Source: Chloroflexota bacterium (GTDB taxonomy: Bacteria; Chloroflexota; Dehalococcoidia; Lucifugimonadales; VXLM01). Taken from it: a stretch of DNA of 37,320 nucleotides. The stretch lies in NCBI GenBank assembly GCA_026713145.1, contig JAPOPA010000348.1, forward strand, positions 1 to 37,320, given 5' to 3'. The first letter of the stretch is position 1. Each line of letters begins with the position of its first letter. Below, piece after piece: positions 22,316-29,534 of the stretch. Under the pieces are notes generated by a model. It was not told the DNA's origin, did no database searches, and saw only the letters and a list, made by a program, of their open reading frames with translations. Both the position numbers and the translations under genes were made by a program.

Positions 22316-23380
22316 GTGACCAGAGCGATTCTGCTAGTCGTAGTTATTGCGCTCTTCATATCCATTGCCGGAGGCGCCGTCGGAAACGCATTTGGCCTCG
22401 GCTTCCTCGGCGCTCCCATGGCGCACATCCAGCTCCCTGCCGAGCCCGTTATTCCCGAGCCCCTGGCGAAGACAGATACCGCCTTCATTCGGGACATCAC
22501 CATAACGAACACAATGGTCGCCTCTTGGGCGGCCATTATTTTGCTCGTCGTCGTTTCGGTCATCGTTTCGCGCAAGGCCTCAACGGTCCCCGGCCGGCTG
22601 CAGGGGATGATCGAGATGGTCTTCGAGTTCTTCCTCGGTATTGGCGAGAGCATCGCAGGAGAACACGCCCGCCGATTCTTCCCCCTGGTGATGACCATCT
22701 TCCTGTTTATCATCGTCAACAACTGGATCGGCATCCTTCCCGGTTTCGGCACAATCGGATGGGTCGAGTCACCGAAGAAGGTGTTATACCACGCAGAGGA
22801 GAAGGCCGAGAGAGCCGGAGAGCACGTAGACCTAGCACACGTCGATCTTCAGGTGTTCGAGGGTACGGGAGCGCTGGTGATGCTGCCTCCCGGCTCAGTC
22901 GACAACCACATCTCGGTCGAGGAGTATGAGCGAGGCGAAGGCTTTGACAAGGAGAGTCAGACGCCCGGACTGCTGATCCCGTACCTCAGGAGCGCCAACA
23001 CCGACATCAATACACCGCTGGCCCTCGCCCTCATAGCGATGGTCGCGATCCACTGGTGGGGCCTGAGCACGCTGGGGATATTCGGTCACGTCGGCAAGTT
23101 CATCAACTTAAAGCAGGGACCGATCATGTTGATCGTCGGTCTCCTGGAGATCATCGGCGAGCTTGCGCGGATCGTCAGCTTCACCTTCAGGCTATTCGGC
23201 AACATCTTTGCGGGCGAAATGCTGCTCATAATCATGGCGTTCCTCCTGCCCGTGATCGGACTCATACCGTTCCTCGGCCTGGAGCTGTTCGTGGGATTCA
23301 TGCAGGCCATTGTGTTCTCGGTACTGACCCTCGTGTTCGCGTCGATGGCGGTCGTCGCTCATAACGGCGAGCACCACTAA
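22316..23380 (+). CDS. atpB: ATP synthase Fo subunit a
   Basis: The proton-channel subunit of the Fo part (354 residues). It starts at GTG with GGAG upstream. The essential Arg is in SFTFRLFGNIFAGEML, the strongest signature of the family, followed by a C-terminal hydrophobic hairpin ending LVFASMAVVAH. It is longer than usual (about 230-290): between IVNNWIGILPGFGTIGW and SANTDINTPLALAL there is an extra, highly charged segment of about 60 residues (see findings). The long N-terminal part with PVIPEPLAK is typical of Chloroflexota-like forms. Part of an uninterrupted ATP synthase operon. Confidence 0.95.
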   Translation: MTRAILLVVVIALFISIAGGAVGNAFGLGFLGAPMAHIQLPAEPVIPEPLAKTDTAFIRDITITNTMVASWAAIILLVVVSVIVSRKASTVPGRLQGMIEMVFEFFLGIGESIAGEHARRFFPLVMTIFLFIIVNNWIGILPGFGTIGWVESPKKVLYHAEEKAERAGEHVDLAHVDLQVFEGTGALVMLPPGSVDNHISVEEYERGEGFDKESQTPGLLIPYLRSANTDINTPLALALIAMVAIHWWGLSTLGIFGHVGKFINLKQGPIMLIVGLLEIIGELARIVSFTFRLFGNIFAGEMLLIIMAFLLPVIGLIPFLGLELFVGFMQAIVFSVLTLVFASMAVVAHNGEHH

Positions 23381-23656
<276 letters not shown>

Positions 23657-23687
23657 GCACGCCCATTAGGTGAACCGACGTGAAGGT

Positions 23688-23706
23688 CCGGCCTGGGAAT
23701 GGCCGG
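23688..23706 (+). other. Hairpin between atpE and atpF
   Basis: CCGGCC and GGCCGG with a seven-base loop, located 31 bases after the atpE stop. No T-run follows, so it is not a terminator; it may be an mRNA stability or processing hairpin that raises c-subunit output relative to the other subunits. Confidence 0.45.
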
Positions 23707-23730
23707 TAGGCTTCGCGTCAAGGAGAGAGC

Positions 23731-24231
23731 ATGGAAGCCCTAGGATTACACCTGCCGCAGTTGATTGCGCAGATCGTTGGCTTTCTCGTCCTGCTGTTCA
23801 TCCTCAGCAAGCTACTCTACAAGCCGCTGCTCAAAGTCATAGACGAGCGTTCGGCCAAGATCAAAGAGAGCCTCGAAGCGGCTGAGAGTGCGAAAGAGCA
23901 GGCCGCCGCCAGCCAGGAGCAGATGCAGGAGGACATAAGGAAGGCGCGCGAGGAGGGCCAGCAAATGATCGCGCAGGCCCGGGATGTCGCAGCGCGGTTC
24001 CGCGACGAAGAGATGGCGAAGGCAAGAGACGAGATCGCCGCCGAGCGCGCAAAGGCCGAGGCCGATATTCAGCGTGAACGAGACTCGGCCATCGAGGACC
24101 TGCGACAGGAGTTCGCCGGACTCGCGATCAGCGCCGCCGAACGCGTGGTGGAGCGTTCGCTCAGCGAGTCGGACCATCGCGACATCATTGATAGAGTGCT
24201 CGAAGAGAGCGGGACCATAGGAAAAGGATAG
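23731..24231 (+). CDS. atpF: ATP synthase Fo subunit b
   Basis: The peripheral stalk subunit (166 residues, normal length). One N-terminal transmembrane helix (LIAQIVGFLVLLFILSKLLY), followed by a long charged coiled coil (KESLEAAESAKEQAAASQEQ onward) and a C-terminal delta-binding part. GGAGAG precedes the ATG. Functions as the stator linking subunit a to the F1 head through delta. Confidence 0.95.
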   Translation: MEALGLHLPQLIAQIVGFLVLLFILSKLLYKPLLKVIDERSAKIKESLEAAESAKEQAAASQEQMQEDIRKAREEGQQMIAQARDVAARFRDEEMAKARDEIAAERAKAEADIQRERDSAIEDLRQEFAGLAISAAERVVERSLSESDHRDIIDRVLEESGTIGKG

Positions 24232-24244
24232 ACCTCAGCCCGAC

Positions 24245-24309
24245 CTCCTCAAGATGTCTTCAGGATTGAGGAGATTTCGGGAGGCACGTTTGTGACTGCT
24301 GATAGTCAC
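24245..24309 (+). other. Two hairpins in the atpF-atpH gap
   Basis: CTCCTCAA/TTGAGGAG (24245-24273, 13-base loop) and GTGACT/AGTCAC (24292-24309, six-base loop) lie in tandem in the 116 bases between atpF and the chosen atpH start. No T-run follows either. They could be mRNA processing or stability elements inside the operon. Confidence 0.4.
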
Positions 24310-24347
24310 GGACTGCTGTGGAACCAGACGGAGTAGACGAAGAAACT

Positions 24348-24890
24348 ATGCCACGATATCCGTCGGCAAGAAGGTACGCACAGGCCGTGTTCCAGATTGC
24401 ATTGGAACACGACAGCCTTGATGTGTGGGTCGACGACCTGCAAACGTTGGCCGATCTGCTTGACGACAAGCAGGTTGCCGCGTTTCTCGACGCGCCGCAG
24501 GTGCCGGAAGCCAGGAAGCTGCAGGCCATTCAGGAACTGCTCGGCGATTCGGTCGGCACGCTGTCGGGCAACCTGCTACGCCTTCTCGCGACAAAGAATA
24601 TGACGCTCTTGATACCCGCCGTCTTGGAGCAGTTTACCGAAATGGTCGACAAACACCGAGGCATTGAGTGGGCAGACGTCACGACCGTGGTGCCGCTGGA
24701 CGATGCCCAGCAGAAGGAAGTAGCACAACTCTTGAGTGGCATTGCCGGAAGCGAGGTCAGTCTCCGGACCTACGTCGAACCGGAGCTTATCGGCGGCATA
24801 GTCGCTCGACTGAACGACCGTGTTATCGACGGGAGCGTCCGTAGCAAGCTGAGGAACATGCACCGGCAGGTAGTGGAACAGATCGGATAG
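24348..24890 (+). CDS. atpH: ATP synthase F1 subunit delta
   Basis: The OSCP-like subunit that links the b stalk to the F1 head (180 residues). The typical N-terminal MPRYPSARRYAQAVFQIA and the C-terminal SEVSLRTYVEPELIGGIVARLNDRVIDGSVRSKL block are both clear. The ORF track starts at a GTG at 24318, adding ten acidic residues; the ATG at 24348 is the usual family start. Confidence 0.94.
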   Translation: MPRYPSARRYAQAVFQIALEHDSLDVWVDDLQTLADLLDDKQVAAFLDAPQVPEARKLQAIQELLGDSVGTLSGNLLRLLATKNMTLLIPAVLEQFTEMVDKHRGIEWADVTTVVPLDDAQQKEVAQLLSGIAGSEVSLRTYVEPELIGGIVARLNDRVIDGSVRSKLRNMHRQVVEQIG

Positions 24891-24944
24891 AACGTAGCGT
24901 ACTGCTTGGCTGTGACGAGCAATACGCAATAGCCGGAGGGTTAT

Positions 24945-26456
24945 ATGGCAGTACGAGGACAGGACATAGCGTCCGTAATCAAGCGTCAGATCGAGGAGTT
25001 CGGTCAGGAACTCACGATGGTGGACGTTGGCACCGTCGTAGAGGTGGGAGACGGCATCGCCCGGGTCCACGGCCTCTCCGGTGTAGGAGCGAACGAGCTC
25101 CTTGAGTTTGAGGGCGGCGTCATCGGAATGGCGCTGACCCTCGAAGAGGACAGCGTGGGATCGGTCATCATGGGCGACCCGCTGGCTGTCAAAGAGGGAA
25201 GCGAGGTGCGCGGCACGGGCCGCGTCGCCGAGGTGCCCGTTGGCGAAGCCCTCCTGGGTCGAGTCGTTGACGGCATCGGCAGACCCATCGACGGCAAGGG
25301 CCCGATTCGCACGACTGAGACGAGGGCCGTCGAATTCCTTGCTCCCGACGTGGCGTCCCGTGAGCCCGTGAATGTCCCGATGCAGACCGGCGTCAAGGCA
25401 ATCGACGCAATGGTGCCGATCGGGCGTGGACAGCGCGAGCTCATCATCGGCGACCGCTCCACCGGCAAGACCGCAATCTGTACCGATACGATCATCAACC
25501 AGAAGGGCGGCGACCTCATCTGCATATACGTCGCCATCGGCCAGAAGGTCGGCAAGGTCGCGCAGCTGCAGGCAACATTGGAGCAGCACGGGGCGATGGA
25601 GTACTCCATCATCGTCGCCGCCAACGCCTCCGACCCCGCCCCGCTCCAATATCTCGCGCCGTACGCCGGCTGCGCGATGGGCGAGTACTTTATGTACAAG
25701 GGCCAGGACGCCCTCATCATGTACGACGACCTTTCGAAACATGCATGGGCCTACCGCCAGATGTCCCTCCTGCTCAGGCGACCTCCCGGACGCGAGGCCT
25801 ATCCCGGCGACGTGTTCTTCCTGCACAGCAGGCTTCTCGAACGTGCCGCCCGTGTGTCGCAAGATCTTGGCGGCGGTTCGCTTACCGCCCTACCGATCAT
25901 CGAGACGCTGGCGGGCGACGTGTCGGCATACGTTCCGACCAACGTCATCTCCATCACGGACGGCCAGATCTATCTGGAGCCGGAGCTGTTCGCGTCGGGC
26001 ATCCGCCCCGCCGTGAACGCAGGTCTCTCGGTGTCCCGCGTCGGTGGAAGCGCGCAAACGCGAGGCATGAAGGGTGTGGCCGGTAGGATGCGCATCGAGT
26101 TGGCGCAGTACCGCGAGCTTGCCACCTTCGCCCAGTTCGGAACCTCCGACCTTGACGCGGCGACCAGGAGGCAGCTCGAACGAGGCCAGCGCGCCGTCGA
26201 GGTCCTCAAGCAGGACCAGAGCGTTCCGCTTCGAATGGAGCAGCAAGTCGCCATCCTCTTTGCCCTCGTTAACGGACACCTCGACGATGTTGAGATATCC
26301 AAGGTAATCGCATTCGAGCGGGCGTTCCACGACTTCATGAGTTCGAACCACCCGGCGATTCTTGAGAGCATCGCCGATTCCAAGGACGTTACGGAGGAGA
26401 CCGGCGAGTCACTGAACAAGGCGGTCATGGAATTCAAGGAGAGCGTGCCGTATTAG
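24945..26456 (+). CDS. atpA: ATP synthase F1 subunit alpha
   Basis: Non-catalytic nucleotide-binding subunit, 503 residues (normal length). Walker A GDRSTGKT (169-176), Walker B region [12 protein letters not shown], and the conserved [11 protein letters not shown] that carries the arginine finger reaching into the catalytic site of beta. N-terminal [13 protein letters not shown] and C-terminal three-helix domain also seen. The ribosome site GGAGGG is strong. Ends six bases before a small extra gene rather than before atpG. Confidence 0.97.
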
Positions 26457-26462
26457 GTCGAG

Positions 26463-26753
26463 ATGCAAAAGCAGCGCCGAGTCCTGGTAGTCGGAAGAAA
26501 CACGGACGATATGGATACCGTAACCGCGACGCTTGAGGGCAACGGCTACTCCGTGACGGGAACGCTGCACGACGACATAGCCGTCGACCTCGCGGGTTCG
26601 TCCGAGTTCGACGCCATCCTGATGGCAGACATGACACAGATAGAGCGGACCGGGCTGAGAGGCCAGATCCTGAAGAAACAACCGAAGATCAAGGTGGTGC
26701 AAGCCGAAGGCCCCGAATCGGTGCTGACACTGCTCAAGCAGGCCCTGCGGTAG
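26463..26753 (+). CDS. Small degenerate receiver-like protein inside the ATP synthase operon
   Basis: A 96-residue protein not normally part of the operon. It starts six bases after the atpA stop and ends ten before the atpG start, so it is tightly embedded and most likely translated. The predicted order of strands and helices looks like a CheY receiver: RRVLVVGRN (strand 1), DMDTVTATLEGNGY (helix 1), FDAILMADM (strand 3) and IKVVQAEGPESVLTLLKQAL (last strand and helix). However, the acidic pair is replaced by Gly-Arg, the phosphoacceptor position falls on Ala55 (or Asp56 shifted by one), and no Thr or Lys-Pro switch is seen. This would be a phosphorylation-independent pseudo-receiver, perhaps a regulator or assembly factor of F1. 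Fold inferred by eye; function unknown. Confidence 0.75.
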   Translation: MQKQRRVLVVGRNTDDMDTVTATLEGNGYSVTGTLHDDIAVDLAGSSEFDAILMADMTQIERTGLRGQILKKQPKIKVVQAEGPESVLTLLKQALR

Positions 26754-26763
26754 GGAAGAGAAA

Positions 26764-27639
26764 TTGCCAAGCGTAAGACAGCTTAGGCGACGCATCCGAA
26801 GCGTCGAGAACACAGCCAAGATAACGAAGGCGATGTCGATGATCGCGGCTTCCAAGATGCGCCGCGCCCAGGAGATGGCCCTTCAGAGCAGGCCGTACGC
26901 CGAGGACATGCGCAATCTTCTCGCCGACCTTGCCGCCCAGCCCGCCCCGGACGACGAGGAGTACATCCATCCATTGCTCCGCCGACGCGAGATCAAGCGG
27001 GCGGAGATCGTAGTGATAACTCCGGACCGCGGACTCACGGGTGGACTCCACAGCAGGATCAACCGCGCCGTAGGCGAGTTCATCTTGGAGCGACAGAAGG
27101 AAGGCGTTGAAACCAGCATCATTGCCGTCGGGCGGAAGGGCCGCGACTTCTTGGTGAGGACGGGGCAGGAAGTCCGGGCGGTATTCAGCGACCTCGGCGA
27201 CCGTCCCGAGCTAGAGGACGTTCGCCCAATCGCCACGTTAGTAAACGACGAATATGGCGAGGAGCGCGTGGATGCCGTGTACTTGGCCTACGCCGACTTC
27301 GTGAGCACGGTCACGCAGAGGCCGGTTGTCCAGCCGCTCCTGCCCGTTGTCCCGGCAGAACTGGAGTACAAGGACATGGTCGGGTACATCTACGAGCCCG
27401 ACCCGCTCACCGTGATGGCCGCGTTGCTGCCGCGCTTCGTTGACATGCAGGTCTACCACGCGGTCTTGGAGAGCGTGGCGAGCGAGCAGTCGGCCAGAAT
27501 GGTGGCGATGAGGAACGCGACGGACAACGCCAACGACATGGTTGCCGACCTTACGTTGGCAATGAACAAGGCCCGCCAGGAGTCGATTACGTCCGAGTTG
27601 CTGGACATCGTGGGCGGCGCGGCGGCTGTCGAAGCATAG
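26764..27639 (+). CDS. atpG: ATP synthase F1 subunit gamma
   Basis: Central rotor shaft subunit, 291 residues. N-terminal SVRQLRRRIRSVENTAKITKAMSMIAASKMRRAQ and the C-terminal ASEQSARMVAMRNATDNANDM/ITSELLDIVGGAAA are both highly typical. The start is a TTG with AGGGAAG upstream, an uncommon start codon that could lower its output relative to alpha and beta. Ends well before atpD. Confidence 0.95.
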   Translation: MPSVRQLRRRIRSVENTAKITKAMSMIAASKMRRAQEMALQSRPYAEDMRNLLADLAAQPAPDDEEYIHPLLRRREIKRAEIVVITPDRGLTGGLHSRINRAVGEFILERQKEGVETSIIAVGRKGRDFLVRTGQEVRAVFSDLGDRPELEDVRPIATLVNDEYGEERVDAVYLAYADFVSTVTQRPVVQPLLPVVPAELEYKDMVGYIYEPDPLTVMAALLPRFVDMQVYHAVLESVASEQSARMVAMRNATDNANDMVADLTLAMNKARQESITSELLDIVGGAAAVEA

Positions 27640-29091
<1,452 letters not shown>

Positions 29092-29102
29092 CAAGGACAA
29101 AG

Positions 29103-29534
29103 ATGCCGCTGACACTTCAAATAGTAACCGCCGAACGAATCGTCTACTCCGAAGAGGTGGACGTGCTCGTCGCCCCCGGAGTTGTCGGAGAGCTCGGCAT
29201 TCTGCCGAGCCACGCGCCACTGCTGACCATCATGCAGCCTGGCGAGATCCGCGTCGACAAGGGGGAAGAGCAGACCTACATCGCAGTTAGCGGCGGGTTC
29301 CTCGAGGTCATTGGCAACAAGGCGACCATCCTCGCCGACACGGCGGAGCGTGCCGAGGAGATCGACGAAGCTCGTGCTGAGGAAGCCGTCAAGCGAGCAG
29401 AAGAGCGAATCGAGTCAGCTACTTCCGCACAGGACTTGGAGCGCGCCCTCGCATCCGTTAGACGCTCACAGGCCCGTCTCAAGGTCGCTCGCCGGCGCAA
29501 TCGCGCCCCACGAGCGGAGATGCCCACAGGGTAA
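29103..29534 (+). CDS. atpC: ATP synthase F1 subunit epsilon
   Basis: The regulatory central-stalk subunit, 143 residues. N-terminal beta-sandwich (LQIVTAERIVYSEEVDVLVAP, GELGILPSHAPLLT, YIAVSGGFLEV) followed by a charged, helical C-terminal region (EEIDEARAEEAVKRAEERI onward) that in other species inhibits ATP hydrolysis. Last gene of the operon, 11 bases after atpD. Confidence 0.95.
   Translation: MPLTLQIVTAERIVYSEEVDVLVAPGVVGELGILPSHAPLLTIMQPGEIRVDKGEEQTYIAVSGGFLEVIGNKATILADTAERAEEIDEARAEEAVKRAEERIESATSAQDLERALASVRRSQARLKVARRRNRAPRAEMPTG

Follow-up and report, generated by a model that had tools for sequence, protein, structure and literature searches.

The arrangement of the F1 genes in the atp operon is generally among the most conserved gene orders, and an additional small gene between atpA and atpG raises the question of whether its product belongs to the ATP synthase or is merely encoded with it. 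In the window (the whole stretch of 37,320 nucleotides that was analyzed), the atp operon has the standard gene order atpB-E-F-H-A-G-D-C apart from this ORF. The initial annotation gave the coordinates of the ORF exactly and described tight spacing on both sides, which amounts to 6 and 10 nt. The features are as follows.

22316..29534, + strand, atp operon atpB-E-F-H-A-(ORF)-G-D-C
24945..26456, + strand, atpA (F1 α), upstream neighbor of the ORF, stop codon at 26454-26456
26457..26462, + strand, 6-nt spacer from the atpA stop to the ORF start
26463..26753, + strand, ORF for a predicted 96-aa mini pseudo-receiver, 96 codons, ATG at 26463, stop at 26751-26753
26754..26763, + strand, 10-nt spacer from the ORF to the atpG TTG, carrying a ribosome-binding-like sequence, GGAAG
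26764..27639, + strand, atpG (F1 γ), downstream neighbor of the ORF, TTG start at 26764

No promoter-like site was seen around the ORF, no Rfam match was obtained within the window, and searches of the open-licence literature turned up no described Chloroflexota gene at the atpA-atpG junction.

Conservation and Selection within the Genus

The ORF is a real gene. Its conservation at the same place in close relatives and its dN/dS ratio, both proposed initially as checks, were determined in a genus sample of four species; absence from all close relatives, which was to count against the initial proposal, was not the outcome. The ORF lies between atpA and atpG with an intact frame in all four species examined of this genus of marine bacteria, and the congeners have identities to it of 89% (IRC4_bin_30, G002), 89% (SB0661_bin_13, G003), and about 54% (SAR202 ALOHA_A2.5_112, G001). 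The spacer between atpA and the ORF is 6 nt in two of these congeners and 1 nt in the ALOHA species. Relative to the two nearest species, substitutions at codon positions 1/2/3 number 7/5/18 and 6/5/18, and the dN/dS ratio, obtained by a simple count method, is 0.18–0.19, with lower values (0 to 0.12) for the atp subunits. A ratio this far below 1 indicates that the ORF is under purifying selection. A chance ORF was ruled out by this ratio together with the prevalence of changes at third codon positions, and a recent foreign gene was ruled out by a GC3 of 0.77, inside the range of the atp genes. A neutral passenger heading for loss, with a reading frame that is merely tolerated, would be in keeping with the confinement of the ORF at this site to one genus and with the turnover of other inserts at the atpA-atpG site within families (f31 and f6), but it is very unlikely given the dN/dS of 0.18, the absence of in-frame stops and frameshifts in four species, and the share of substitutions that fall at third positions (18/30 and 18/29).

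Receiver Ancestry and Loss of the Active Site

A Pfam scan of the window protein alone gave no family match, and no family member reached the curated Pfam cut-off in the scans. Profile comparisons were based on an alignment of the ORF protein with 19 relatives (A5). Response_reg (PF00072) was matched by 12/19 family members, the best at 4.3e-6, and in hhalign the family profile aligned with receivers from the same genome with a probability of 93% (E 2.9e-7), spanning β1 to β4. A profile search of the PDB with the family returned response regulators almost exclusively (best 7e-5) and included the FrzS structure, PDB 2gkg, as a weak match. The protein therefore has the sequence-profile relation to receivers that characterizes the CheY-like superfamily. 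In the same genome, at least 15 receiver domains exceed the Pfam cut-off. Two receiver-domain matches above that cut-off, of which one is full and the other is truncated at the end of the contig, lie near the start of the window, at 2083-2445 and 1-210.

The active-site replacements, taken from column states in the profile alignment, are as follows.

26493..26498, + strand, Gly11-Arg12 codons replacing the receiver acidic pair (Asp-Asp)
26625..26627, + strand, Ala55 codon replacing the phosphoacceptor Asp

Most family members share the Gly-Arg replacement of the acidic pair. The phosphoacceptor column contains Ala, as in the window member, Gly, or Glu, and Asp is retained in four relatives, which fits descent of the family from a working receiver. 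The ORF protein has no Thr/Ser at the end of β4 and no KP motif, so that no Thr/Lys pair is left, and none of the features of a phosphorylatable receiver (acidic pair, phosphoacceptor Asp, Thr/Ser, Lys) is present. Pseudo-receivers (PsRs) are defined as receiver homologues in which key active-site residues have been lost (PMC12632262), and the ORF protein fits this definition. As judged from these alignments, the ORF protein is receiver-derived, degenerate, and phosphorylation-incompetent. The initial annotation had recognized the loss of the acidic pair and phosphoacceptor, and the pseudo-receiver that it proposed is borne out by the profile relation to receivers and by the receiver-like fold of the model described below.

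Predicted Structure

Structure prediction and a fold search had also been suggested initially, with a non-receiver fold to be counted against the proposal; the fold obtained is receiver-like. An AlphaFold model from four near-identical sequences alone had a pLDDT of 58 and was set aside. When receiver fragments were added for residues 1–64, the pLDDT rose to 89 and the model comprised four β-α units. The added receivers were cut to β1-α3 because whole or near-whole receivers were misaligned beyond β3; residues 1–64 are consequently biased toward the receiver fold, and the remainder is not. The C-terminal part is also confident (block means 82–92), with only four orthologues aligned there. The predicted elements are as follows.

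β1 6–10, α1 14–26, β2 30–34, α2 37–46
β3 51–55, α3 59–72, β4 77–81, final helix 84–95

Foldseek matches to the model include BaeR (TM 0.85, rmsd 2.0), DivK (TM 0.83), and PorX; the CikA pseudo-receiver is also matched but ranks lower. Matches of low rmsd mostly contain about 20 gap columns, and the ungapped ones have an rmsd near 6. The predicted fold is that of a (β-α)4 receiver in which the usual fifth strand is missing. It lacks the five parallel strands of CheY-like proteins, and receivers are still its main structural matches. We read the Foldseek gaps as a probable loss of α4-β5, with the final helix at the place of α5. Alternatively, the final helix would be α4, as in HMM alignments to some receivers.

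Homologues Elsewhere in the Order

Profile searches covered 250 genomes of the SAR202-type order, mostly metagenome-assembled, in which some operons are lost to contig breaks. The family consists of solo proteins of 95–106 aa in several families of the order. Clear members occur in families f31, f37, f40, and f41, one per genome and none in the atp operon, and in a protein tree the copy from the genus groups with that of f40 (support 0.94). Outside the genus, the long junction gaps that were examined contained no family member, and scans of viral contigs likewise found none. Profile matches across the phylum (E about 1e-9 to 1e-10) were left out of the family; of the four that were read, three are receiver-kinase proteins and one did not yield the right frame. 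The association of the family with atp genes that would mark an ATP-synthase-specific subunit or regulator is limited to one genus, and the family has no general link to the ATP synthase. The tight spacing in the window had been taken initially as a sign of a functional link to F1; this argument is weakened by the finding that homologues in all other families that were examined lie away from the operon.

The neighbors of the homologues, named from reading the sequences, differ. In f31, four genomes with readable flanks have a PstS-like gene after the pseudo-receiver, and three of these have an LLM-type oxidoreductase before it; neighbors of other homologues include NUDIX, ThuA-like, and SDR proteins. 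These differing neighborhoods point to no particular partner. The PstS-like phosphate-binding protein gene (L058, L061, L062, and L063) is a possible hint to the role of the solo pseudo-receiver in f31.

These neighborhoods bear on the possibility that the ORF protein is a part of two-component signaling only, for example a decoy or a heterodimer partner of a kinase or response regulator, whose gene gains steady expression from its place in the atp operon. Its receiver ancestry and the 15 or more receiver domains of the same genome, as possible partners, favor such a role, and pseudo-receivers acting through heterodimers have been reviewed (PMC12632262). It is nevertheless improbable: no kinase or regulator gene was recognized adjoining any family member read, and the α4-β5-α5 dimerization face would be incomplete if the last helix replaces α5.

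The atpA-atpG Junction

Gaps of at least 200 nt, designated long, were surveyed in 117 operons of the order outside the genus, from 36 families. At atpA-atpG the median gap is 45 nt, and the gap is long in 21/117 operons and 13/36 families, as compared with 0/40 operons of other Chloroflexota (Fisher p about 0.002, an indicative value as species are not independent). In the same survey, long gaps occur at atpG-atpD in 13 operons, at atpH-atpA in 7, at atpF-atpH in 2, at atpE-atpF in 3, and at atpD-atpC in 9, a few of the last being assembly or coordinate artefacts (e.g. L166). The atpB-atpE gap, counted by length alone, is also long in 24/106 operons. In a tree of AtpA/G/D, long atpA-atpG gaps are spread over at least 10 separate lineages, and the nearest sister lineages of the genus, f3 and f11, have the slot without the ORF. 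The inserts comprise at least seven unrelated ORF types, and about one third of the long atpA-atpG gaps contain no convincing ORF. The contents identified in atpA-atpG gaps are as follows.

PaREP1/HEPN-like protein (G042)
HicB-HicA pair, splitting the atp operon (G173; L143)
4-kb insert with a methyltransferase-like gene and HicB-like ORFs, splitting the atp operon (G008; L144)
DUF4177-type proteins (G087, G033)
membrane protein (G029)
127-aa ORF (G089)
acidic-tailed protein of about 70 aa (seven genomes: L157, L154, L175, L199, L208, L155, L184)

The atpA-atpG junction in the SAR202-type order is a promiscuous slot. The conserved atp gene order from which the initial annotation argued is upheld as regards the order itself, but the atpA-atpG junction is often interrupted in these bacteria. 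The F1 part of the operon is repeatedly interrupted in the order, mainly at atpA-atpG and atpG-atpD. Because the slot is filled by unrelated inserts, a toxin-antitoxin pair among them, in at least 10 other lineages, location is a weak guide to function, and the link to F1 that had been drawn from it does not follow. More generally, a gene at an atp junction in this order is weak evidence of a role in the ATP synthase unless it is found nowhere else.

The gathering of unrelated inserts at a junction between genes for a three-copy and a one-copy subunit could also mean that the insert is a spacer that lowers translation of γ relative to α (3:1 stoichiometry), the protein product being irrelevant. 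This is the least probable of the explanations considered: the sequence of the ORF protein is conserved, the atpG-atpD junction also gathers inserts although β is again needed in three copies, and most relatives have no insert at all.

The protein of about 70 aa (A7) has the consensus LVEEAxKxLKGKQVIVVTSLESDGYLQEI...FVAWIYEDTGE and gave no Pfam match above the cut-off and no PDB match of weight. It is present in 7/247 genomes of the order, single-copy and only between atpA and atpG; the families concerned (f13, f26, f30, and f36) form one clade in the tree, with a loss in f33. It makes a better case than the ORF for an F1-linked accessory protein, since it occurs nowhere except at atpA-atpG. 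A broader possibility, of low probability, is that lineage-specific accessory proteins of the ATP synthase have repeatedly entered the operon through this slot.

Other junctions have inserts of their own. ORFs with a PCYCGC motif (PF13798-like) lie in atpG-atpD gaps of f21, f25, and f27 (L163, L217, and L145), with a Pfam match for the L163 copy. Related ORFs of 129–179 aa with the motif DLYRWFL...YG / TAWYDVPTAAF lie in the atpG-atpD gaps of L171, L185, L196, L198, and L205 (genus g78, family f41) and gave no Pfam match. Retropepsin-like aspartyl protease ORFs are present in atpG-atpD gaps of L186, in two tandem copies, and L195. PaREP1/HEPN-like proteins occur at two junctions in three families, at atpA-atpG in L135 and at atpD-atpC in L199 and L217, the L217 copy being assigned by resemblance only. 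Outside the order, the Chloroflexota operon L252 has a 1707-nt insert between atpG and atpD.

Role of the ORF Protein

The best reading, to which we assign a probability of about 0.56, is that the ORF product is a mini pseudo-receiver that binds protein without regard to phosphorylation, that its gene entered a permissive slot a single time and is expressed together with the ATP synthase, and that the partner of the protein is not F1 in particular. The protein belongs to a small family of solo shortened pseudo-receivers, usually one per genome and away from atp genes, and one copy would have come into the atpA-atpG junction on the branch leading to the genus. From that point on, the ORF would have shared a transcript with the F1 genes and probably been coupled to them in translation, so that the amount of protein is presumably set by atp operon expression, with steady co-expression with the ATP synthase. 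The protein would most likely be a constitutive protein-binding adaptor, like phosphorylation-independent pseudo-receivers such as FrzS. Phosphorylation-blind protein binding is the most economical reading because phosphorylation chemistry is absent and at least one face of the predicted fold is shortened.

The principal alternative is a genus-specific F1 regulator or assembly factor, recruited for binding α or γ, damping ATP hydrolysis, or aiding assembly. The ORF is kept between atpA and atpG with short spacing in all four species, is under purifying selection, and drifts in sequence to a degree similar to AtpH. Across the genus, AtpG falls to 72% and AtpH to 51% identity, yet the insertion and short spacing are retained, which is compatible with selection for location and counts against a mere lodger. 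Other bacteria do have small soluble regulators of the ATP synthase, such as AtpTheta of cyanobacteria (PMC9241938). On the other side, family members elsewhere are not linked to atp genes, the slot is filled by unrelated genes in many lineages, and the ORF protein has no sequence resemblance to a known F1 inhibitor. We regard this alternative as possible but unlikely. F1 as the partner is possible but not indicated, because the family occurs elsewhere without an atp neighborhood and the slot accepts HicBA, which is plainly unrelated to F1. Of the two, a lodger expressed along with the operon is more probable than a dedicated component of the ATP synthase. Also unlikely is the full proposition, in which a receiver lost its phosphorylation chemistry, was shortened to four β-α units, and was recruited to a genus-specific role in F1 regulation or assembly.

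Comparison with Known Systems

The ORF protein resembles PF00072 receivers in its β-α order, its hydrophobic strands, and the β1-β4 alignment with receivers of its own genome, but differs from them in having 96 aa, a predicted four β-α units, and alterations at all active-site positions. The loss of active-site residues is shared with pseudo-receivers, of which six minor Pfam types with (β-α)5 topology have been described and some of which work via protein contacts or ligand binding (PMC12632262). The minimal four-unit family of SAR202-type Chloroflexota lends itself to the question of what a receiver fold does when it lacks both phosphorylation and a fifth strand.

FrzS, a motility protein, is larger and has a full-length receiver-type domain. 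The ORF protein is, on sequence grounds, like the FrzS pseudo-receiver in being a phosphorylation-independent receiver relative and unlike it in being solo and shorter. FrzS of Myxococcus xanthus binds its protein partner through the α3-β4-α4 face, and FrzS-SgmX is a precedent for a pseudo-receiver that acts by protein contact (PMC12632262).

AtpTheta is a small soluble cyanobacterial ATP synthase regulator whose function has been shown (PMC9241938). Both it and the ORF protein are small and AtpTheta is tied to the ATP synthase in the literature; no sequence relation between the two is claimed. A genomic hitchhiker is a gene that travels in a conserved, highly expressed operon to which it is unrelated. 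The situation at the atpA-atpG junction is unlike that of the usual hitchhikers in that one junction is reused by different genes within one order.
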